A DNA stretch of 64,000 nucleotides from Pseudomonas baltica (GTDB lineage: Bacteria > Pseudomonadota > Gammaproteobacteria > Pseudomonadales > Pseudomonadaceae), in the NCBI RefSeq assembly GCF_031880315.1, contig NZ_CP134771.1:5643001-5707000 (forward strand), written 5' to 3'. Below the pieces are notes generated by a model, which saw only the letters and a program-made list of their open reading frames with translations, did no database searches and had not been told where the DNA came from. Below, piece by piece: positions 36,719-62,150 of the stretch. The translations under genes were made by a program, and so were the position numbers. The stretch's first letter is position 1, and the number at the start of each line of letters is the position of its first letter.

Positions 36719-37675
36719 CTACTCCTCCCGCAACCCCTGCGCCGTATTCAAATCCGTCACCAGCACATCCACGAAGCCGCCCTTGAGCGCGCCACGAATT
36801 GCCTGAACCTTGCGGCTCCCGCCCGCCAAGGCCAGCACGCGTGGCACGCTGTGCAGCTTGGGCAATGCCATTGACACGACGAACTCCTCGTCTTCGCCGA
36901 GCACGGGCTTGCCGTTGGCGTCGAAGTAGCGCAGGCAGATGTCTCCCACCGCGCCGCGCTCGGCGAGCACCCGCAACATTTCCTCGGTGTAGTAGTTGCC
37001 GCTGTTGCGTAGCAGTTGCGACGGCTCCAGTTCACCGACGCCGACAATGGCCAGGGTGACGCTGTCGAAGCGCTCGATGACTTCGCGCACTTCGTCCATC
37101 TGCATGATGCGTTCGCGGCTTTGCACGGACTGCTCGATACTCTGCGAGGGCAGCAAGTAGGCGGGGCAGTTGAGCAGCGTGGCCAGGCGCTGGGTCAGCA
37201 GGGTGGCTTCGAAGGCACCCTTGTTGCCGACCCCGCCTAGCAGTTGCACCACTTCGCGGGCGGCCTGGCGGCCCGGCAGGCTGTGCAGGTGCCCGACCAT
37301 GGCACGAATCGTGGAACTCCAGGATGAAATACCGATGCTGTCATCGGCGTTCAAGGTGGTTTCCAGATAATGAGCGGCGGCCGAGCCAATCGCCTGCTTG
37401 ATGCTTTCTTCGTCGTCAGGCACTGTCGCTTCGACCACGATCACCCGGCGCACGCCGTAGCGTTGCTGCAGTTCGCGTTCAAGTTCCAGATGCAGCCCCT
37501 GGGGGCGCATCACGGTAATCTTCACCACGCCGTCCTGCAGCGCGCGTTGCAAGGCGCGGCTGATGAAGGACTGCGAGAGGTCGAGCTGTGCCGAGATCTG
37601 CGACTGCTTCAAGCCTTCCTCGTAATAGAGGCTGGCAATTTTGGTAATCAGACGCAGTTCTTCGATCTGGCTCAT
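36719..37675 (-). CDS. SorC/DeoR-type sugar-binding transcriptional regulator
   Basis: A 318-aa regulator. The N-terminal helix-turn-helix (ITKIASLYYEEGLKQSQISA, then LDLSQSFISRAL) is typical of the SorC family, and the large C-terminal domain (from residue 60) is the sugar-phosphate-binding fold with LLGGVGNKGAFEATLLTQRLA and GICL-type phosphate loop VGDICLRYFD. The start at 37675 follows GAGAG. It is the last gene of the leftward sugar operon, 63 bases after the SDR, and is the obvious regulator of the whole divergent locus, probably sensing a phosphorylated intermediate. Confidence 0.9.
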   Translation of the reverse strand: MSQIEELRLITKIASLYYEEGLKQSQISAQLDLSQSFISRALQRALQDGVVKITVMRPQGLHLELERELQQRYGVRRVIVVEATVPDDEESIKQAIGSAAAHYLETTLNADDSIGISSWSSTIRAMVGHLHSLPGRQAAREVVQLLGGVGNKGAFEATLLTQRLATLLNCPAYLLPSQSIEQSVQSRERIMQMDEVREVIERFDSVTLAIVGVGELEPSQLLRNSGNYYTEEMLRVLAERGAVGDICLRYFDANGKPVLGEDEEFVVSMALPKLHSVPRVLALAGGSRKVQAIRGALKGGFVDVLVTDLNTAQGLREE

Positions 37676-37738
37676 GACTCTCTCGATGACGGGCTTGTAC
37701 AGTAACAATCAGTTCACTACCGCCTGCATCATAACAAA

Positions 37739-38539
37739 TCAGGACATGATCAAGCCGCCGTCGATATTGATCGCCTGGCCAGTCAGGTAGGCGGCGTCGT
37801 CGCTCGCCAGGAACGCCACCAAGCCTGCCACGTCTTCGGGTTTGCCGGCGCGGCGCATGGGGATATTGCCGACCCATTCAGCCATCAGCTCGCCTTTGGC
37901 GTATTGCTTGTGCTCGGTGCTGAGGATCTGCCCCCATACACGGTCGTTGTACTCCCACATCTCGCTTTCGATGATGCCTGGGCAGAAGGCGTTGACGGTG
38001 ATGCCATGGCGCGCGAGTTCCAGCGACAGGCTCTGGGTGATGCCGATCACGCCCATCTTGCTCGCCGCATAATGCGGGGTGTAGACAAAGCCCTGGCGGC
38101 CCTGGCCGGAGGAGGTGTTGATCAGCCGGCCGCTGCCCTGTTTGACCATGTACTTGGCAGCTTCTCGGCAGCAAAGCCAGACGGCGGTGGTGTTGACCTG
38201 CAGCACCTTGTCGAAGTCGCTGCGGGGCATGCTGTCGAAGTGGTCGATGGTGATGATGCCCGCGTTCTGCACCGACACGTCGATGCTGGCGAAGCGCTCG
38301 AATGCGGCAGCGTACATCTGCACCACCTGTGCTTCATCGGTGACGTCGACGCCCAGCGCCAAAATCTGTGCGCCATGCCTGCCGGCGATCTGCTCGGCCG
38401 TGGCGGTCACACGAGCCAAGTCGTTGGACGCCATGACCAGATTCGCCCCTTCCCGGGCGAAGCGCTCGGCGATGCCGGCACCGATGCCGCGGCAGGCGCC
38501 GGTGATGACGATGGTCTTGCCAGTGAATCGTTGCGACAT
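37739..38539 (-). CDS. SDR-family sugar/polyol dehydrogenase (first of two)
   Basis: A 266-aa short-chain dehydrogenase. The cofactor loop is TGACRGIGAGIAERF near residue 12, NAG is in VQNAGIITI, the catalytic Ser in INTSSGQGRQG and the Tyr-Lys pair in HYAASKMGV. AGGAG lies 8 bases before the ATG. It looks like a NAD-dependent polyol or sugar dehydrogenase (sorbitol, xylitol or tetritol class). It follows the other SDR by 22 bases. Two oxidoreductases in one operon suggest two oxidation steps, or oxidation of two related substrates, before the kinase. Confidence 0.88.
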   Translation of the reverse strand: MSQRFTGKTIVITGACRGIGAGIAERFAREGANLVMASNDLARVTATAEQIAGRHGAQILALGVDVTDEAQVVQMYAAAFERFASIDVSVQNAGIITIDHFDSMPRSDFDKVLQVNTTAVWLCCREAAKYMVKQGSGRLINTSSGQGRQGFVYTPHYAASKMGVIGITQSLSLELARHGITVNAFCPGIIESEMWEYNDRVWGQILSTEHKQYAKGELMAEWVGNIPMRRAGKPEDVAGLVAFLASDDAAYLTGQAINIDGGLIMS

Positions 38540-38561
38540 GTCATGCACTCCTGAGGTGGGC

Positions 38562-39326
38562 TTACCAGCAGACGAAGCCACCGTCGACGATCAGGTCGAC
38601 GCCGGTGCAGAAGGACGCGGCCTGACTGGCCAGAAAGATCGCCGGGCCGACGATCTCCTCGACGGCGGCCATGCGTCCCATCGGCGTGGTTTGCTCGAAG
38701 ATTTTTACCTGCTCGGCGACTTCCGGGCGCGAGTTCATGGGCGTAGCGGTGTAGCCCGGGCTGATGCAGTTGACACGCAGGCCCTGGTCGGCCCACTCCA
38801 TGGCCAGGCTTTTGCTGAGATGGATGACCCCGGCCTTGGACGTGTTGTAGTGGGCCTGCAGCAGCCCGCGGTTGACGATGCTGCCGGACATCGAGGCAAT
38901 GTTGACGATGGCGCCTTTGCCGCGCGGCAGCATCACCGCCGCCTGTGCTTGGCAACTGAGGAAGACGCCCGTCAGGTTGACGTCGAGCATGCTCTGCCAG
39001 CGCTGCAGCGTCAGCTCTTCGGCGGCTTGGGCATTGGCGATGCCTGCGCAGTTGACCGCGACGCTCAGCTCGCCCAGTTGGCTTTCACAGCTGGCCACGG
39101 CGGTTTCCAGACTGGCCTTGTCGGTGACGGTGCCGCTCAAGGCCAAGGCACGACGGCCCAGCGCCTGGATACGTTCTACGGTCTGGCCAATGCCGGCACT
39201 GCCGGGCAGGTCGAAGCACGCCACGTCGGCGCCCGCCTGGGCCAGGCCCACGGCAATGGCCTGGCCAATGCCGCTACCGGCACCCGTGACGAATGCGGTT
39301 TGCCCATCGAGTCGAAAAATTTGCAT
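38562..39326 (-). CDS. SDR-family sugar/polyol dehydrogenase (second of two)
   Basis: A 254-aa short-chain dehydrogenase. The cofactor loop is TGAGSGIGQAIAVGLAQAG near residue 14, followed by NCAGIANAQ, the catalytic Ser in NIASMSGSIVNRG and the Tyr-x3-Lys in AHYNTSKAGV. The stretch IVNIASMSGSIVNRGL is like arabinitol, mannitol and threitol dehydrogenases. Its closest role is a polyol 2-dehydrogenase giving a ketose, the form that the FGGY kinase in the divergent operon would phosphorylate. The leader has an A-rich Crc-type motif before GGAG. Confidence 0.88.
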   Translation of the reverse strand: MQIFRLDGQTAFVTGAGSGIGQAIAVGLAQAGADVACFDLPGSAGIGQTVERIQALGRRALALSGTVTDKASLETAVASCESQLGELSVAVNCAGIANAQAAEELTLQRWQSMLDVNLTGVFLSCQAQAAVMLPRGKGAIVNIASMSGSIVNRGLLQAHYNTSKAGVIHLSKSLAMEWADQGLRVNCISPGYTATPMNSRPEVAEQVKIFEQTTPMGRMAAVEEIVGPAIFLASQAASFCTGVDLIVDGGFVCW

Positions 39327-39336
39327 ACAGGCTCCG

Positions 39337-39344
39337 TTATTTTT
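39337..39344 (-). promoter_or_regulatory. A-rich Crc/Hfq-type motif before the SDR gene
   Basis: The coding strand reads CCAAAAAATAACGGAGCC. AAAAATAA fits AAnAAnAA and abuts the GGAG site of the SDR starting at 39326. Confidence 0.4.
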
Positions 39345-39364
39345 TGGTTTTGTAGGGGGAGGGC

Positions 39365-40888
39365 TCAGGCCGTGGCCAGCTCCATGACGGTCACCGGCGT
39401 GGCCTGCCCGCGCTCAAGAATGCCCATCTGCCGGCCGCGACTCATGACCATCACCCGATGCGACAGGCCGAGTACTTCGTCGAGGTCGGAGCTGACCACG
39501 ATCACCGCCATGCCGGTGGCCGCCAGCTGTGCGATCACCTCGTAGATGGCTGCGCGGGCGCCGACGTCGATGCCGCGGGTCGGCTCATCGAGAATGAATA
39601 CCTTGGGGTTGCGCGCCAGCCACTTGGCGATGACGACCTTCTGCTGGTTACCGCCCGAAAGGTTCGACACCGCCTGTTCAGGTTGGCCCTTGACGCCTAG
39701 CCGGGCAACGGCCTTGAGGGCGAAATCGCGCAGGCTGGCCGGCATCACCCAGCCCTTGCCCTCGATCAGATCGGTGTTGCCATAGGCGAGGTTGTCTTCG
39801 ATGCGGTGGCTGACGATCACGCCTTGCTGTTTACGATCCTCGGGCACCAGCACCACGCCGGCCTGGATCGCCTCATAAGGGTTGGCAAAATGCCGGTCCT
39901 GGCCTTCGAGCTGCAGGTGGCCCTGGATGTTCTGGGCTGCTCCGGCAATGGCCCGTACCAGCTCGGTACGCCCGGCGCCGACCACCCCGGCGATGCCGAA
40001 CACTTCGCCGGCTCGCACGCTGAACTCGATACCGTGCAGGGCGAATTCACGGCAGGTCAGGTCCTTGATCTGCAGCACTACCCGCGCGGACGGCTCGGTC
40101 ATCTTCGGGAAAATCCGCTCCAGGCTGCGCCCCACCATTTCCTCGACCAACTGGCGCACTGGCAACTGGGCCGTGGCATGCACGGAAATCTGCCGGCCGT
40201 CGCGCAACACCAGCACGCGGTCGGCGATGCGGGCGATTTCTTCCAGGCGATGGCTGATGTAGATGAACGAAACGCCTTCAGCCTTGAGCCGCTCGACCTG
40301 CTTGAACAGCAACTCGGTCTCCTCGCCACCGAGCGCTGCGGTGGGTTCGTCGAGAATCAGCAGGCGCGCCTTGAGAGTCAGGGCCTTGGCGATCTCCACC
40401 AGTTGCTGGGCGGCGACGCTCAGCCCGGCGACCTTGCGCGACGCCGGCACATTCAGGCCAAGGCGTTGCAGTTGCTTGTCGGCTTGCGCCTCGATGTATT
40501 CGCGGTCGACCCGCCCGTTGCGCATGGGCAGTCGGCCAACGAACATATTTTCGGCGATCGATAGCTCGGGCAGCAGGCGAATCTCCTGATGAATGAGGCC
40601 GATCCCGGCATCCAGTGCGGCCCCAGGAGTGGCTGGGGCATAGGGCTGTCCGAGCCAGGTCATGCTGCCGCCCGCATCGGGCTGCACTACGCCGGCGATG
40701 ATCGATGACAAGGTCGACTTGCCGGCGCCGTTCTCACCCAGCAGGGCCAGGACTTCGCCGGGGCGGATGTCGGCGTCGATCCCCGCCAGCACCTGCACGC
40801 CAGCGTAGTTTTTGCCGATATTGCGCAGGCACAGGGCGGCTTCGCCGGTCGTCGATGATTCAGTAACGTCTGCTGTGAGGGCGTGCAT
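39365..40888 (-). CDS. Ribose-type sugar ABC transporter ATP-binding protein (two ATPase domains)
   Basis: A 507-aa double ATPase of the RbsA/XylG family. The first domain has Walker A GENGAGKST near residue 50, signature region LSVAAQQLVEIAKAL and Walker B LLILDEPTAALG. The second has the usual degenerate Walker A (GVVGAGRTE), the signature LSGGNQQKVVIAKWL and Walker B FILDEPTRGIDVG. I start at the ATG at 40888; a TTG 6 codons upstream overlaps the binding-protein stop as TTGA and is also possible. It powers the RbsC-type permease encoded two genes upstream. Confidence 0.92.
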   Translation of the reverse strand: MHALTADVTESSTTGEAALCLRNIGKNYAGVQVLAGIDADIRPGEVLALLGENGAGKSTLSSIIAGVVQPDAGGSMTWLGQPYAPATPGAALDAGIGLIHQEIRLLPELSIAENMFVGRLPMRNGRVDREYIEAQADKQLQRLGLNVPASRKVAGLSVAAQQLVEIAKALTLKARLLILDEPTAALGGEETELLFKQVERLKAEGVSFIYISHRLEEIARIADRVLVLRDGRQISVHATAQLPVRQLVEEMVGRSLERIFPKMTEPSARVVLQIKDLTCREFALHGIEFSVRAGEVFGIAGVVGAGRTELVRAIAGAAQNIQGHLQLEGQDRHFANPYEAIQAGVVLVPEDRKQQGVIVSHRIEDNLAYGNTDLIEGKGWVMPASLRDFALKAVARLGVKGQPEQAVSNLSGGNQQKVVIAKWLARNPKVFILDEPTRGIDVGARAAIYEVIAQLAATGMAVIVVSSDLDEVLGLSHRVMVMSRGRQMGILERGQATPVTVMELATA

Positions 40889-40902
40889 GGTCACCGTCCG
40901 GC

Positions 40903-41832
40903 TCAAGGGTGCTGTTTGATGAAGGGCTCGACGTTGTCCTTGGTGGTCAGCACGGCGGGCAGCAATTGCTCTTTGGGTACGGGCTTGCCGGCCTTGAAGT
41001 CAATGGCCGAACTCACCGCCAGGCGACCCATGGCTTGGGTCTGCTGGGTCATGGTGGCTTGCAGCACGCCACTGGCAACGGCCTTGAGCGCAGCAGCGTC
41101 ACCGTCGAAACCGACAATGGTCACCGGGTGGTCGAGGTTGCCGACCTTGACGGCCTGGGCGGCGCCCAATGCCATGGCATCGGCACGTCCGAAGAACACG
41201 GTGATGTTGGGGTCGCGTTGAAGCATGTCCTGGGCCACGGCGAAGCCTTTGTCCTGAGCCCACTCGGCCGGCTGCTGGGCAACCACCTTGAGGTCGGGAA
41301 AGGCTTTGAGGCCTTCATCAAAACCCTTGGCGCGGTCGTTTTCCGGGGTGGTGCCGATCTGCCCTTGCAAAATGGCTACGCGGCCTTTGCCTTGGGTGAC
41401 CTTGCCCACGTATTCGGCCAGGGCCTTGGCGCCGGCCACGCTGTCGCTGGCGATAAAGGTGTCGCCCGGTGCGTCCGGCGCGTTGCGATCGACGGCGATC
41501 ACCGGGATACCCGCCGCCTTGGCTGCTTTCACCGGCACACCGGCGGCGGTGGCGCCGGCCGGAATATAGATCAGCACGTCGATCTGGCGGGTGATCAGGT
41601 CTTCGATCTGGCTAACCTGGGTGGCGGAGTTGCCCTGGGCATCGACCGTGATGACTTTCACCCCCTTGGCCTTGCCTTCGGCTTCTACCGATTGTTTGAT
41701 CTGGTTGAAAAAGTCGGCCTGCAGGTTGGCGACCGCCAGGCCAATGGTCAGGTCCTTGGCCTGGGCGGTGCCGGCGGCAACGGTGGCAGCACAGAGAGCG
41801 CAGGCGAGCAGCAGTTTACGGGTCTTGAACAT
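40903..41832 (-). CDS. Periplasmic sugar-binding protein (RbsB family)
   Basis: A 309-aa periplasmic-binding-protein type I fold. Signal peptide residues 1-25 end GTAQA|KDLT. The mature part opens TIGLAVANLQADFFNQIKQ and shows VITVDAQGNSATQVSQIEDL, IPVIAVDRNAPDA, and FGRADAMALGAAQAV, the pattern of ribose, xylose and tetritol binders. The Asp-Arg-Asn (VDRNAP) and late Asp (GFDGDAA) are ligand-contact positions in the family. It lies between permease and ATPase genes. The leader holds an A-rich Crc-type motif just ahead of AGGAG. Confidence 0.92.
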   Translation of the reverse strand: MFKTRKLLLACALCAATVAAGTAQAKDLTIGLAVANLQADFFNQIKQSVEAEGKAKGVKVITVDAQGNSATQVSQIEDLITRQIDVLIYIPAGATAAGVPVKAAKAAGIPVIAVDRNAPDAPGDTFIASDSVAGAKALAEYVGKVTQGKGRVAILQGQIGTTPENDRAKGFDEGLKAFPDLKVVAQQPAEWAQDKGFAVAQDMLQRDPNITVFFGRADAMALGAAQAVKVGNLDHPVTIVGFDGDAAALKAVASGVLQATMTQQTQAMGRLAVSSAIDFKAGKPVPKEQLLPAVLTTKDNVEPFIKQHP

Positions 41833-41847
41833 GGCAATGACTCCTGG

Positions 41848-41855
41848 TTTTTATT
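41848..41855 (-). promoter_or_regulatory. A-rich Crc/Hfq-type motif before the sugar-binding protein
   Basis: The coding strand reads ACAATAAAAACCAGGAG. AATAAAAA fits AAnAAnAA and sits immediately before the ribosome site of the gene starting at 41832. Confidence 0.45.
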
Positions 41856-41881
41856 GTGGTGCTACGGGTATGGGGCGAGTG

Positions 41882-42898
41882 CTATGCACGATCGTTACGG
41901 CGGCGCAGGGTGTCGAGCGTGACGGCCAGGGCGATCACCACACCGATCACGACTTGCTGAATGAATGGCGAAACGCCTAGCAGATTCAGACCGTTGCGCA
42001 GCACGCCGATAATCAATACGCCGACCAGGGTGCCGCCGATGCCACCCACACCACCGCTCAGGCTGGCGCCGCCAATGACCACGGCAGCAATCGCGTCCAG
42101 CTCCATGGTCAGGCCCGCGCTGGGCTGCGAGGAGTCGAGGCGCGCGGCCATGGTCACCGCAGCGATACCGGCCAGGGCGCCGCTCAGGGCGTAGACCCAA
42201 AGCGTAATCTTGCGCACCTTGATGCCCGACAGACGCGCTACCTCGGCGCTGCCGCCGATGGCATAGAGGTTGCGCCCTCCGGCGCGGTAGCGCAGGTACA
42301 CCCAGGCACCGGCAGAGAGCAGCAGAAACAGGCCAACAGTGGCGGACAGAAAGCCGAAATGCCGCACCGTGGCCAACGCGGTGAACCAGTCCGGAAACCC
42401 GACAATCTGCCGGCCCTCGGTGAGGATATTGGCCAGCCCGCGCGCCACGGACATCATCGTCAGGGTGGCGATGAAGGCGGGCAGGCGGGCATAGGAAATC
42501 ATCAGCCCGGACACCAGCCCTGCCAGCATGCCGGTGCCAATTGCCAGCACGATGGCCAGGCCTAGCGGCACGCCGACGTCCTGATATAGCCAACCGAGCA
42601 TCATCATCGAAAACGCCAGTACCGAACCGACCGACAGGTCGATGCCGCCAATCACGATCACCGCTGTCATGCCTAGGGCGAGAATGCCCAGCACGGTGAC
42701 TTGGTCGAGGATGTTGAGGCCGTTGCGGACCGAGAAGAAGTAGTCGGAACTGAAGGAGAAGACCAGCACCAGCAATGCCAGGCCAATAAGCGGCCCGCCG
42801 ATGTTGTTGGGAAGCAGTTTGACCAGACGTGAGCGGCTGGCGCGTTTGCCGGCCGATTCAGAGGTGCCGGAATTAGGAACCGAAACGTTACCGTCCAC
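41882..42898 (-). CDS. Ribose-type sugar ABC transporter permease (RbsC family)
   Basis: A 338-aa membrane protein with about ten segments. The family core is seen in VTVLGILALGMTAVIVIGGIDLSVGSVLA near residue 50-75, and in the C-terminal ELDAIAAVVIGGASLSGGVG. It starts at a GTG (42898), since AGGAG lies 8 bases upstream and no nearer ATG fits. It is the first gene of the leftward operon, an unusual place for a permease. The N-terminal 25 residues are polar and strain-specific. Confidence 0.92.
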   Translation of the reverse strand: MDGNVSVPNSGTSESAGKRASRSRLVKLLPNNIGGPLIGLALLVLVFSFSSDYFFSVRNGLNILDQVTVLGILALGMTAVIVIGGIDLSVGSVLAFSMMMLGWLYQDVGVPLGLAIVLAIGTGMLAGLVSGLMISYARLPAFIATLTMMSVARGLANILTEGRQIVGFPDWFTALATVRHFGFLSATVGLFLLLSAGAWVYLRYRAGGRNLYAIGGSAEVARLSGIKVRKITLWVYALSGALAGIAAVTMAARLDSSQPSAGLTMELDAIAAVVIGGASLSGGVGGIGGTLVGVLIIGVLRNGLNLLGVSPFIQQVVIGVVIALAVTLDTLRRRNDRA

Positions 42899-42913
42899 GG
42901 GGTGTTCTCCTGA

Positions 42914-42921
42914 TTATTTTT
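42914..42921 (-). promoter_or_regulatory. A-rich Crc/Hfq-type motif before the sugar permease
   Basis: The coding strand reads CCAAAAAAAATAATCAGGAG. AAAAATAA fits AAnAAnAA and lies just before the ribosome site of the permease. Confidence 0.45.
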
Positions 42922-42979
42922 TTTGGAGTACAGGTTCTGACATGCCCGCCGCACAGTAAAACCTGCGGCTTTGTCAGCA

Positions 42980-43121
42980 CTGAATAAATATGCGTGGCTG
43001 AATTTCAATTCAGGTTCGGCCTGCGGTGGATGATTGTCAAGCAATTTAATTATCCGAGCCACCTCTTGACCGTCGGAAAAAAAAGGGCCTAAATATATTT
43101 GCACAACTGAATAAATATTCA
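42980..43121. promoter_or_regulatory. Divergent sugar-locus promoter with repeated CTGAATAAATAT
   Basis: The 274-base gap 42899-43172 separates the two divergent operons and is AT-rich. The 12-mer CTGAATAAATAT occurs at 42980-42991 and again at 43107-43118. The second copy extends to the near-palindrome TGAATAAATATTCA (43108-43121). Spaced by 127 bases, one near each operon, they are candidate operators for the SorC-type regulator. Confidence 0.55.
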
Positions 43122-43172
43122 ATAAAGCGATCCTGCTGCCGCCCCCGCGAGGCAGCTCACGAGGGACAGTTC

Positions 43173-44006
43173 ATGAATGGTTTCCGGTACGACGCCACGC
43201 AGATTCGCGAAAGAGCCCGGTTGATCCGGCAGCACATCATCCACCTCAATGCCAACTCCCCAGCCGGTGGTCACACCGGTGCTGACCTTTCGGAAGCGGA
43301 CATCCTCGCCACCTTGTACTTTCGGATACTCGACGTGGCGCCTGAACGCACCCAGGACCCTGAGCGCGATATCTATATCCAGAGCAAAGGCCACGGCGTC
43401 GGCGGTTTGTATTGCACCCTGGCGGAGGCGGGCTACATCCCACTTGACTGGCTGGCGACCTACCAGCACTTCAATTCACACCTGCCAGGCCACCCGGTCC
43501 GCCAGAAAACCCCTGGCATCGAGCTCAACACCGGTGCTCTGGGCCACGGCTTGCCGGTCGCTGTGGGGCTTGCGCTGGCGGCTAAGATGTCCGGCAGCCA
43601 ACGGCGCATCTATGTGTTGACGGGGGATGGCGAGTTGGCCGAAGGCTCCAACTGGGAAGCGGCCATGTGTGCGGCCAAATACAAGCTCGACAATCTCTTC
43701 GTGATCGTCGACAAAAACAAACTGCAACTCGCGGGCTTGACCGCCGATATCATGCCGCTCGACCCGCTGGACGTGAAATGGGCGGCGTTCGGGTTCACCG
43801 TCAGTGAGTGTGACGGCAATGATCCGGCGCAGTTGATCGAGCACTTGGAGGCCATGCAGGGGCGCAGTGGTGCGCCGCAGGTATTGATTGCTCATACCGT
43901 CAAGGGCAAGGGTGTTTCGTTCATCGAAGCGCGTCCCGAATGGCACCACCGGGTGCCCAAAGGCGATGAAATCGCCGCTGCGCTGGAGGAACTGAGCCAT
44001 GTCTGA
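43173..44006 (+). CDS. Transketolase N-terminal subunit (split transketolase, AptA-like)
   Basis: A 277-aa protein equal to the thiamine-diphosphate pyrophosphate-binding half of transketolase. Landmarks: HLNANSPAGGHTGADLSEAD near residue 25, IQSKGHGVGGLYCTL, the GDG motif in LTGDGELAEGSNWEAAMCAA, and VIVDKNKLQLAG closing the metal site. It needs the next gene for activity and overlaps it by 8 bases. Split transketolases serve catabolic pathways, among them apulose-4-phosphate transketolase (AptA/AptB) of D-apiose breakdown. The reaction would move a two-carbon unit from a ketose phosphate to an aldose phosphate. Confidence 0.9.
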   Translation: MNGFRYDATQIRERARLIRQHIIHLNANSPAGGHTGADLSEADILATLYFRILDVAPERTQDPERDIYIQSKGHGVGGLYCTLAEAGYIPLDWLATYQHFNSHLPGHPVRQKTPGIELNTGALGHGLPVAVGLALAAKMSGSQRRIYVLTGDGELAEGSNWEAAMCAAKYKLDNLFVIVDKNKLQLAGLTADIMPLDPLDVKWAAFGFTVSECDGNDPAQLIEHLEAMQGRSGAPQVLIAHTVKGKGVSFIEARPEWHHRVPKGDEIAAALEELSHV

Positions 44007-44934
44007 AGCCGAGCATTTCGCAACCATCATGACCGATGCCTTTATCGCCGCCGTGGACGCCGGCATCGACCTGGTGCCCGTGGTCAGCGATTCCACCTCG
44101 ACGGCCAAGATCAGCCCCTTCGTCAAGCGTTTCCCCGAGCGCCTGATCAACGTTGGTATCGCCGAACAGACGTTGGTGGGCGTGGCCGCCGGTCTGGCCT
44201 TGGGCGGCAAGGTGGCGGCTACCTGCAACGCCGCGCCCTTTCTGATTTCCCGCGCGAATGAACAGATCAAGGTAGACGTGTGCTACAACCAGGCCAACGT
44301 CAAGATGTTCGGCCTGAATGCCGGTGCCAGCTACGGCCCGTTGGCCAGCACCCACCACAGCATCGACGATATTTCGGTGATGCGCGGCTTTGGCAACGTG
44401 CAGATTTTTGCCCCGGCCGATCCCCTGGAATGCCGGCAAATTGCCGATTACGCGTTGCGCCATGTGGGCCCGGTGTATATCCGCCTGGATGGCAAGCCGC
44501 TGCCGTCGTTGCACAGCAGCGATTACCGATTCGTTGCGGGTCAGGTCGACGTGCTGCGCCAAGGCGCCGACGTGACGATCGTTGCCCTTGGTTCGGTGGT
44601 GCATGAGGCTGTCGACGCCGCCGGTCTGCTCGCCGACAAGGGCGTGGCCGCGCAGGTCGTCAACCTGTCCTCGATTCGGCCGCTGAACCGGGAAGCACTG
44701 CTTGAAGCGCTCACCGGCAAGGGCGGGGTGGTGACAGTAGAAGAGCACAACATCAATGGCGGCGTCGGCAGCGTGGTCGCTGAAGTGCTGGCCGAGGCCG
44801 GGCTGGGCGTGCCGCTGATTCGCTTGGGTATCGCCGACGGCGAGTACGCCGCCGCAGGGGGGCGCGAGGCCACCCGGGCCTTGCATTGCATCGATGCCGC
44901 CGGTATTGCTGCCGCCGCGTTGCGGTTGTGCTGA
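43999..44934 (+). CDS. Transketolase C-terminal subunit (split transketolase, AptB-like)
   Basis: A 311-aa protein with the pyrimidine-binding and C-terminal domains of transketolase. The catalytic Glu that activates thiamine diphosphate is in INVGIAEQTLVGVAAG near residue 55. Other marks: ASYGPLASTHHSIDDISVMR, FAPADPLECRQIADYAL and the C-terminal-domain strand VVTVEEHNINGGVGSVVAEVL. The start overlaps the N-terminal subunit by 8 bases. It ends 10 bases before the kinase. The heteromer would act on the phosphoketose made by that kinase. Confidence 0.9.
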   Translation: MSEAEHFATIMTDAFIAAVDAGIDLVPVVSDSTSTAKISPFVKRFPERLINVGIAEQTLVGVAAGLALGGKVAATCNAAPFLISRANEQIKVDVCYNQANVKMFGLNAGASYGPLASTHHSIDDISVMRGFGNVQIFAPADPLECRQIADYALRHVGPVYIRLDGKPLPSLHSSDYRFVAGQVDVLRQGADVTIVALGSVVHEAVDAAGLLADKGVAAQVVNLSSIRPLNREALLEALTGKGGVVTVEEHNINGGVGSVVAEVLAEAGLGVPLIRLGIADGEYAAAGGREATRALHCIDAAGIAAAALRLC

Positions 44935-44944
44935 GGGCCATGAA

Positions 44945-46438
44945 ATGAGCGATCGCACGCCCTTGATTCTGGCTATTGATGAAGGCACCAGCAACGCCAA
45001 GGCGGTGCTGGTCAACCTGCATGGCCAAGTGGTCGCGCGGGCCTCCAGGCCCCTGGGACTCAGCCACCCGCAGCCGGGTTTTTCCGAGCAGGACCCAGAA
45101 GAGATCTGGACCAGCACCCTGGCCAGCATCGAGGAATGCCTGGCCCAGGTGGCGTGCCCCGTCGATGCCCTGGCCATCAGCAATCAGCGTGAATCGGTAT
45201 TGGCCTGGAGCCGGCATACAGGCGCCGCCCTGGCCCCCTGCGTCAGCTGGCAATGCCGACGCTCGCTGCCCTTGTGCACCGAGTTGCATGCGCAAGGCCA
45301 CGAAGCCGGTGTGCTCGCCAAGACCGGCCTGACCCTGGACCCGATGTTTTCGGCTGGCAAAATGCGCTGGCTGCTCGACCAGTTGCCCGATGGCCATGCC
45401 CGCGCCGCCGCAGGCGAGATCTGCCTGGGCACCGTGGACAGCTGGCTGCTGTGGAAATTGAGCGGCGGCCAAGTCTTTGCCACCGACCCGTCCAACGCGG
45501 CGCGTACGCAGCTCTACAACCTGCACACCGGTGATTGGGACGACGAGTTGCTGGCGCTGTTCGGCATCCCTCGTCAGGCGCTGGCGAAAATTTTACCGAG
45601 CGCGGGTTTTTTTGCCGAGACCGTGGCGTTGGGCACGCTGCCAGCCGGGCTGGCCGTGCTGTCGATGATCGGTGACTCCCATGCCGCGCTGTATGGGCAG
45701 GGCGGTTTTGTCCCCGGGCGGGTCAAGGCCACGCTGGGCACCGGCTCGTCATTGATGACGCCCATGGCGGGGCCGCTGGCCTCAGCCCACGGCCTGTCGA
45801 CCACGCTGGCTTGGCACGATGGCAGCACGCCCACCTTTGCCTTGGAGGGCAATATCGTCCACACCGGCGCGGCCGTGCAGTGGGCGGCAAAGCTGCTAGC
45901 CAGTGACGCACCCGGCGCCGAGTCGTTGGACGCGCTGACCGAGCAGGCCGCCGCGTTACCTGACAACGGCGGTGTGTACTTTGTCCCGGCGCTGTCCGGG
46001 CTCGGTGCGCCGCATTGGCAGGCGCATGCTCGTGGAGTGATCTGCGGCCTGACCGAAGCCAGTTCGCGAGCCCATATCGTGCGCGCTTCACTGGAGTCGA
46101 TCGGCTACCAGATACGGGACGTGTTCGAGGCCATGGAACATGATATCGGCGAGCCGCTCAGGGAGATCTGGGTCGATGGCGGTGCTACGCGCAACCGCTG
46201 GCTGATGCAGTTTCTCGCTGACCTGCTGAGTCGTCCGGTCATCCGCAGCCTTTCACCGGAAGTTTCGGCGTTAGGCGCTGCGCACCTCGCGGGCAAGGCC
46301 TTGGGCCTTTGGACTGATCAGGATGCGCTGCTGGCGCTGGACCGCCCCCGCGAACGCTTCGAGCCTAACCCGCATCGGGCGTTGCAAGGGCAGTACGAAG
46401 CGTGGCAACAGGCGTTGCGGCGGGCGTTGGTGGTGTAG
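44945..46438 (+). CDS. FGGY-family carbohydrate kinase
   Basis: A 497-aa kinase of the glycerol/xylulose kinase superfamily. The ATP site starts LAIDEGTSNAKAVLVN at residue 9, with HPQPGFSEQDPEEIW near 42, ISNQRESVLAW near 78 and the C-terminal nucleotide motif EIWVDGGATRNRWLMQFLAD near 405. The sequence is nearer to glycerol kinase and apulose kinase type than to xylulokinase. It probably phosphorylates the ketose delivered by the SDR enzymes, giving the transketolase substrate. It is the third gene of the rightward operon; candidates for the substrate are apulose, erythrulose, xylulose or ribulose. Confidence 0.88.
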   Translation: MSDRTPLILAIDEGTSNAKAVLVNLHGQVVARASRPLGLSHPQPGFSEQDPEEIWTSTLASIEECLAQVACPVDALAISNQRESVLAWSRHTGAALAPCVSWQCRRSLPLCTELHAQGHEAGVLAKTGLTLDPMFSAGKMRWLLDQLPDGHARAAAGEICLGTVDSWLLWKLSGGQVFATDPSNAARTQLYNLHTGDWDDELLALFGIPRQALAKILPSAGFFAETVALGTLPAGLAVLSMIGDSHAALYGQGGFVPGRVKATLGTGSSLMTPMAGPLASAHGLSTTLAWHDGSTPTFALEGNIVHTGAAVQWAAKLLASDAPGAESLDALTEQAAALPDNGGVYFVPALSGLGAPHWQAHARGVICGLTEASSRAHIVRASLESIGYQIRDVFEAMEHDIGEPLREIWVDGGATRNRWLMQFLADLLSRPVIRSLSPEVSALGAAHLAGKALGLWTDQDALLALDRPRERFEPNPHRALQGQYEAWQQALRRALVV

Positions 46439-61658: not shown

Positions 61659-61871
61659 CCCTTTGCTGCGGGCCTGTGCGGCTCGCCCTGTCCATTGGCC
61701 CTTCGCTTAGGCTCAGGGTACCCGCGTTCCGGCACCTGAAGAGAGGGCACGGCGCAATAGGCCATCCATGGCCTAACGCGCCTGACCCGGCATCCTGCCG
61801 GGATCGCCCTCTCTTCAGGCACCTCCACGCGGCCTGCTGGAGGGGCGAGCCGCACAGGCCCGCAGCAAAGG
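61659..61871. repeat. Long hairpin element 1 (MITE-like)
   Basis: A 28-base perfect inverted repeat bounds the element: CCTTTGCTGCGGGCCTGTGC... at 61659-61686 and its complement at 61844-61871. Inside, GGCACCTGAAGAGAGGGC (61731-61748) pairs with GCCCTCTCTTCAGG (61806-61819), and GGCCATCCATGGCC is near-palindromic. No protein gene. This fits a non-autonomous mobile repeat. Confidence 0.75.
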
Positions 61872-61923: not shown

Positions 61924-62150
61924 TGTTCTGCTTTCGAGTCGGCTTTGGGGTCGCGGCCCCCTTTCAGCAGGCCGCGCTTCGACGCACTGGCGAGGGGATA
62001 GCCGGCATGGATGCCGGCTAAGCCCCGTTGGGCCACGGAAGGCCCATCGGGGCGTGCCCCTCGCCAGTGCGTCGAAGCGCGGGCACCCTGAGCTAAAGCG
62101 AAGGGCCAATGGCGGGGGCCGCAACCCCAAGGCCGGCTCGAAAGCAGAAC
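61924..62150. repeat. Long hairpin element 2 (MITE-like)
   Basis: Outer arms GTTCTGCTTTCGAG at 61924 and the complement ending at 62150 are nearly perfect through about 35 bases. A 24-base perfect inner inverted repeat runs from GCGCTTCGACGCACTGGCGA (61974-61997) to its partner at 62057-62080. It shares with element 1, in opposite orientation, a ~34-base module (CCATTGGCCCTTCGCTT...; 61692-61726 and 62078-62112). Confidence 0.75.

Follow-up and report, generated by a model that had tools for sequence, protein, structure and literature searches.

How a bacterium might carry D-apiose on to apulose when its gene cluster holds no apiose isomerase is the question raised by a nine-gene locus of Pseudomonas baltica, found at 36719-46438 of the window (the whole stretch of 64,000 nucleotides of contig NZ_CP134771.1 that was analysed, from a genome of 6.63 Mb). 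Judged by sequence comparison, the locus is probably a pair of operons for D-apiose catabolism in which two short-chain dehydrogenases/reductases (SDR1 and SDR2) stand in the isomerase's place, and it is likely to be a Pseudomonas member, with a transporter of its own, of an isomerase-less D-apiose pathway that has already been described. The route through apiitol, the assignment of steps to the SDRs, their cofactors and the function of an operator-like site are parts of this reading that we infer.

In the proposed pathway, D-apiose, whose C1 is an aldehyde and whose C2 is a secondary alcohol, would enter via a CUT2 transporter and be reduced by SDR1 at C1 to D-apiitol, which SDR2 would oxidise at C2 to apulose, the C2 ketone; the two SDRs together would replace the isomerase ApsI. 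An FGGY kinase would make apulose 4-phosphate, and the two-subunit transketolase AptAB would move a two-carbon unit of this compound to glyceraldehyde 3-phosphate, giving dihydroxyacetone phosphate (DHAP) and xylulose 5-phosphate; Carter et al. reportedly found that AptAB cleaves apulose 4-phosphate with DHAP and xylulose 5-phosphate as products. Both transcription units would be controlled by a SorC regulator at the palindrome TGAATANNTATTCA.

Gene layout and the match to the Escherichia cluster

The reading draws first on the D-apiose cluster of E. coli SE15/ST131 (ECSF_RS02670-02715; PMC13001218), which likewise consists of two SDRs, an FGGY kinase, a SorC regulator, a split transketolase and a CUT2 transporter, and likewise has no ApsI. 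The six non-transport genes of the two clusters are one-to-one best matches, with BLASTP identities of 79% for SDR1, 62% for SDR2, 68% for AptA, 70% for AptB, 49% for AplK and 57% for SorC, and their proteins are apparent orthologues, orthology here meaning one-way best matches against the proteins of the E. coli cluster only. Two parts of the original prediction are upheld: the kinship of the kinase with apulose kinase and of the split transketolase with the apulose-4-phosphate transketolase of two subunits, and the presence of two dehydrogenases in the isomerase's place. In contrast, the transporter subunits are only 27-37% identical by BLASTP and belong to another CUT2 lineage, and gene order and the position of the kinase also differ. 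A DUF2291 gene, present in the E. coli cluster and not known to be defining, was not found among the open reading frames (ORFs) of the window's cluster.

According to PMC13001218, D-apiose as the only carbon source supported growth of E. coli and E. fergusonii strains carrying the SE15-type cluster but not of K-12, and growth of P. carotovorum carriers is likewise reported. The same paper describes the Escherichia cluster as being without apsI, hypothesises that two oxidoreductases replace it, and leaves the mechanism of the isomerase-less step to 'Further biochemical studies'. Because this form is in print for Escherichia, the suggestion that the window holds an undescribed variant is not supported. 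The name 'Pseudomonas' is absent from the main text of that paper, and a search of open-licence literature returned no report of Pseudomonas growth on D-apiose. Another branch of apiose catabolism is treated in PMC6302742.

All nine genes of the predicted set (an RbsA/B/C-type, that is CUT2, transporter, two SDRs, SorC, split transketolase and FGGY kinase) were verified at 36719-46438. They form a closely packed minus-strand unit, permease-SBP-ATPase-SDR2-SDR1-SorC (SBP, sugar-binding protein), and a divergent plus-strand unit, tktN-tktC-kinase, in which the genes for the two transketolase subunits overlap by 8 bp. The ORF translations place the likely starts of SorC at ATG 37675, of SDR1 at ATG 38539 and of the kinase at ATG 44945 (497 aa). 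The features are as follows.

36719..37675, minus strand: SorC/DeoR-type sugar-binding transcriptional regulator (PF04198, 196.9 bits; 57% identity to the E. coli SE15 apiose-cluster regulator)
37739..38539, minus strand: SDR1, classical SDR with NADP(H)-type motif, proposed D-apiose reductase (79% identity to ECSF_RS02675)
38562..39326, minus strand: SDR2, an SDR resembling polyol dehydrogenases, with an FDL motif of the NAD type and a proposed role as apiitol 2-dehydrogenase (NF004774 above cut-off; 62% to ECSF_RS02670)
39365..40906, minus strand: CUT2 sugar ABC transporter ATPase, AraG/XylG/RbsA-type (37% to the E. coli cluster's ATPase)
40903..41832, minus strand: CUT2 periplasmic SBP (PF13407; identity to the SBP of the E. 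coli cluster only 27%)
41882..42898, minus strand: CUT2 permease (PF02653; 35% to the E. coli cluster's permease)
42981..43012, no strand: two weaker operator-like sites, TGAATAAATATGCG (42981-42994) and TGAATTTCAATTCA (42999-43012), with 2 mismatches each
43108..43121, no strand: operator-like palindrome TGAATAAATATTCA, an exact match to TGAATANNTATTCA, conserved among relatives
43173..44006, plus strand: tktN, AptA-like N-terminal split-transketolase subunit, binding thiamine diphosphate (PF00456; 68% to E. coli AptA)
43999..44934, plus strand: tktC, AptB-like C-terminal split-transketolase subunit (PF02779 and PF02780; 70% to E. coli AptB)
44945..46438, plus strand: AplK-like FGGY kinase, a member of the glycerol-kinase subfamily whose substrate pocket is altered (49% identity to E. 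coli AplK)

The nine genes are not grouped by chance, because 33 of the 398 Pseudomonas genomes searched (the window's own counted) hold a tktC relative with at least 79% identity and all nine genes keep the same arrangement in 11 of the 12 such Pseudomonas loci that were read widely, the twelfth (L040) ending at a contig end. A class-wide genome sample searched at 1e-90 gave a match in one genome of 369, which was the window's own, and no other. Other split-transketolase clusters of Pseudomonas (L058:9327-16939 and L053; 35-38% identical) have a related CUT2 transporter (44-59%) and a different SDR; no AplK-like match was found in the fetched stretches of these two clusters, and they probably serve another substrate.

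The isomerase slot among relatives

At E 0.001, the genome that holds the window gave no homologue of the Pectobacterium ApsI or of the fucose-isomerase-like (FucI-like) protein of other clusters; positive controls for the two queries come from other searches, in which the first matched its control and the second its targets. The isomerase reported missing by the original prediction is absent, as ApsI, from both cluster and genome at this threshold. An ApsI- or FucI-like isomerase elsewhere in the genome was rejected on the same searches, by which an isomerase of another family could be missed.

What fills the isomerase's place in related clusters was counted in 80 named loci, the best 80 of 579 encoding AptB relatives when ranked by closeness to E. 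coli AptB; because the loci were chosen in this way, the counts lean towards the kin of that protein. Clusters were sorted by chosen identity thresholds (SDR1 50%, SDR2 60%, SDR3 45%, ApsI 40%, FucI-like 35%). Three loci are repeats of others (L108 = L040, L113 = L047, L118 = L050), and L113 and L118 are counted within the 34 palindrome loci, the 45 and 35 SDR motif rows and the 83 kinase rows given below. At least one candidate for the slot lies inside the cluster in 63 of the 80: SDR1+SDR2 in 22, SDR1+SDR3 in 10, the FucI-like protein in 28, ApsI in 2, and an SDR pair plus FucI-like protein in one (Vibrio salinus), with none in the remaining 17. SDR1 is accompanied by a second SDR of the same locus in 33/33 named loci, and in 10/80 SDR1 is kept and SDR2 swapped for another SDR.

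The D-apiose transketolase pathway of Pectobacterium, said to have been set out by Carter et al. in 2018 as AplK, AptAB and ApsI, resembles the window in its AplK- and AptAB-like proteins, a related SorC and an operator-like site, and differs in having ApsI, a xylose-isomerase-like protein, where the window has SDR1 and SDR2. Enteric clusters of the FucI-like class (e.g., Citrobacter freundii L072) share AptAB, an AplK-like kinase, SorC and a CUT2 transporter with the window; unlike it, they carry a 472-aa Fucose_iso_C protein and lack the SDRs. Clusters of the Erwinia/Dickeya/Burkholderia type with SDR1+SDR3 (e.g., L132) share SDR1 (59-90% identity to the form found in E. coli or in the window), an FGGY kinase and a split transketolase, whereas their transketolase is more divergent, TGAATANNTATTCA occurs in 0/10 loci, and the second SDR in L132 is of the GolD/DthD family, scoring above that family's cut-off.

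In a tree of joined AptA and AptB sequences, the window's transketolase falls with the Pectobacterium and E. coli proteins in one supported clade of 63 rows, and at least five changes between SDR and isomerase forms are counted with 'none' rows set aside; this was a quick search of 81 rows in which 25 of 78 inner branches are open and long branches meet. The tree took 4 of 11 further Pseudomonas loci and left out L084, L105 and L121 (short) and L108 and L113 (repeats). Furthermore, searches at E 1e-20 covered 22 genomes with an SDR pair, namely those of every SDR1+SDR2 locus except L068 (21 of 22) and that of L120 from the SDR1+SDR3 class. They gave no ApsI orthologue, one 36% paralogue, and a single match to the FucI-like query, in V. 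salinus; the positive control scored in both searches. Such exchange between SDR pairs and isomerases would be expected if the two served one function.

The 17 'none' loci are of several kinds. Seven come from short contigs or from close to the end of one (L061, L100, L108, L128, L134, L137 and L140), and eight are enteric clusters that no contig end interrupts; 7/8 of these enteric genomes carry an ApsI relative (86-88%) elsewhere. In one further 'none' locus, of Marinomonas alcarazii, a 190-aa ORF directly after aptB (L097:10999-11571) is RpiB/LacA-like by eye and perhaps represents a further isomerase type.

Several observations weigh against the SDR pair as the isomerase's substitute. SDR1 (80-84%) occurs elsewhere in 6/8 of the enteric 'none' genomes, in five alongside ApsI and in one that is the genome without ApsI, and in the three such regions fetched it stands with SDR3 and a transporter; the SDR pairs of these genomes may serve another input. 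V. salinus has an SDR-pair cluster (L095) beside a FucI-like cluster (L102) on one contig, so that, with the five enteric genomes holding both ApsI and SDR1, the exclusion is incomplete. L123, the last of the 17 'none' loci, from an alphaproteobacterium with AptAB and AplK relatives, gave no ApsI, no FucI-like protein and an SDR1 match of only 33%.

The same genomes, V. salinus and the five enteric ones, speak for an alternative in which a promiscuous sugar isomerase of the host converts apiose while the SDRs act on a second input, for instance apiitol, or clear side products, as does the resemblance of SDR2 and the L132 SDR3 to polyol dehydrogenases. We regard this as unlikely: apiitol needs one dehydrogenase, yet SDR1 always has its partner SDR in the named loci; SDR clusters tend to replace the isomerase gene; and no such isomerase was found in the window's genome, in a search confined to the ApsI and FucI-like types.

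The 472-aa protein of the fucose-isomerase family (L072:12457-13875) and its relatives, found in 28 of the 80 named loci and in V. salinus L102, occur in enteric, Yersinia, Vibrio and planctomycete clusters, without SDR1 in the 28 loci. Fucose_iso_C was found in 5/5 proteins tested, and the nearest curated family is sulfoquinovose isomerase, far under its cut-off (111 vs 700 bits); a comparison with solved structures at E 0.001 gave no match. The protein is a candidate apiose isomerase unrelated to ApsI. The clusters L151, L152 and L153 have the order SDR3-SBP-DUF2291-ATPase-permease-SDR1; the stretches read gave no match to the kinase or the transketolase, and AplK/AptAB lie elsewhere in these genomes; they may feed apulose in trans to AplK/AptAB or serve another input.

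The operator-like palindrome

The gap between the permease gene and tktN holds TGAATAAATATTCA at 43108-43121, the sole exact occurrence of TGAATANNTATTCA in the 6.63-Mb genome, in which the reversed control pattern also occurs once. With up to 2 mismatches the window has 4 matches against 0.42 expected, and in 5000 plain shuffles of the window's 600 bp the exact site arose 0 times and a site with at most 1 mismatch 5 times. A second site, with 1 mismatch, is found in part of the Pseudomonas loci.

Among relatives, TGAATANNTATTCA with at most 1 mismatch is found in the 600 bp before aptA in 34/34 SDR1+SDR2 loci (two repeats included), 19/28 FucI-like loci and 2/2 ApsI loci, as well as in 10/17 loci of the 'none' set (with L059 in place of L108), 1/1 mixed and 0/10 SDR1+SDR3 loci. 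A SorC relative was not seen in nine of these ten SDR1+SDR3 loci, and the tenth, L120, has a SorC (53%) and no site. Where apsI stands apart from the cluster, the exact site is found just upstream of apsI in 5/7 genomes, thus tying the isomerase to the same regulon and supporting the palindrome as the putative SorC operator; the remaining two have apsI together with transporter genes, and no site was found in the 8.5 kb taken. The palindrome offers a simple marker for the apiose regulon.

Dehydrogenase roles and the input sugar

On these comparisons we lean, by a narrow balance, towards the view that the SDR pair acts as a redox 'isomerase' through free D-apiitol, with one SDR being apiose reductase (EC 1.1.1.114), and that the pair has been swapped several times with at least two unrelated isomerases, ApsI and the FucI-like protein, under a conserved SorC operator. 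SDR1 has the glycine motif TGACRGIG and no acid where SDR2 has Asp, and both the Arg in this motif and the missing acid recur in 43 of 45 rows (exceptions L095 and L106); in SDR2 an Asp follows beta 2 in every one of 35 rows. Since such residues are linked by motif rules to NADP(H) and to NAD, respectively, the pattern suggests that SDR1 uses NADP(H) and SDR2 uses NAD. With modest confidence, SDR1 is put forward as the apiose reductase and SDR2 as the apiitol dehydrogenase, because SDR1 is the constant partner and SDR2 is exchanged for other SDRs. It counts against these roles that the SDRs match best to SDRs of the FabG, L-iditol-dehydrogenase and polyol-dehydrogenase types and not to aldose reductases. 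Among solved structures, only general relatives came up, SDRs for the two SDRs and sugar-binding proteins for the SBP.

An apiose reductase (EC 1.1.1.114) is said to have been purified from Aerobacter aerogenes around 1970, and to our knowledge no gene has been assigned to it; nor was a gene linked to this enzyme found in the accessible parts of the open-licence literature. Klebsiella pneumoniae ATCC 13883 has the SDR1+SDR2 form (L066, in which SDR2 runs off the stretch), which would fit the A. aerogenes reductase.

The two roles could also be reversed, with SDR2 as apiose reductase and SDR1 taking apiitol to apulose, or the route could pass through a dicarbonyl by oxidation at C2 followed by reduction at C1. 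Either is improbable, as SDR2 is the exchanged member in 10/80 loci (for a GolD/DthD-family SDR where scanned, in L132) whereas SDR1 stays, and NADPH-driven reduction with NAD-driven oxidation is the favoured pairing. Reversal gains from the cofactor of the known reaction, since the reversible reduction of D-apiose to D-apiitol is written with NADH (KEGG R03577; PMC1686944), while the motif of SDR1 is NADP-type and that of SDR2 NAD-type.

The kinase misses two curated GlpK cut-offs (472.8 vs 590.35 bits and 478.4 vs 498). Relative to the genome's own GlpK-like kinase, encoded elsewhere and 42% identical, it is changed at three pocket positions, which we take to be those of the glycerol pocket of GlpK: all 83 aligned AplK-like kinases have Ser in place of both the Gln and the Phe, and 78 of the 83 have Leu or Met in place of the Tyr. 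A plain glycerol or xylulose kinase locus was ruled out by the missed scores together with the changed pocket. By homology the kinase appears to be an apulose kinase of the AplK type and AptA/AptB a two-subunit apulose-4-phosphate transketolase; the closest solved relative of the AptA-like subunit is the split-chain transketolase 6yak.

D-apiose is by far the likeliest input because of the match to the E. coli apiose cluster, and apiitol is a possible second one. Threitol, erythritol or pentitols, named among the possible inputs in the original prediction, are not supported as leading candidates, and of its route from alditol to ketose, ketose phosphate and transketolase, the start at an alditol gives way, on the comparative evidence, to an aldose passing through an alditol. 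The window's transporter, which is not orthologous to that of the E. coli cluster, tells against D-apiose and leaves a very small chance that, after a change of transporter, the Pseudomonas locus takes some other sugar, branched or straight, or an alditol such as threitol, erythritol, xylitol or another pentitol, all the more as the ligand of the SBP is not told by sequence comparison. Both SDRs, AptA and AptB are nevertheless 62-79% identical to the E. coli set, the operator-like site is common to both clusters, and the kinase pocket is that of other AplK-like kinases.

If the apiitol route is true, the locus would be an example from bacteria of isomerisation carried out by a reductase and a dehydrogenase together, the means by which fungi use xylose. 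It would also supply sequence candidates for the orphan apiose reductase (EC 1.1.1.114), explain how apiose-growing E. coli clones manage without an isomerase, and point to the FucI-like protein as a further type of apiose isomerase. Since apiose cross-links rhamnogalacturonan II, a pectin of the plant cell wall (PMC10952590), its use may open a niche on plants to bacteria.

Outside the locus, the window holds two divergent matches to the TwoAYGGAY RNA (RF01731), at 61715-61839 on the minus strand and 61965-62089 on the plus strand, with scores of 49.5 and 60.7 bits, respectively (gathering score 43).

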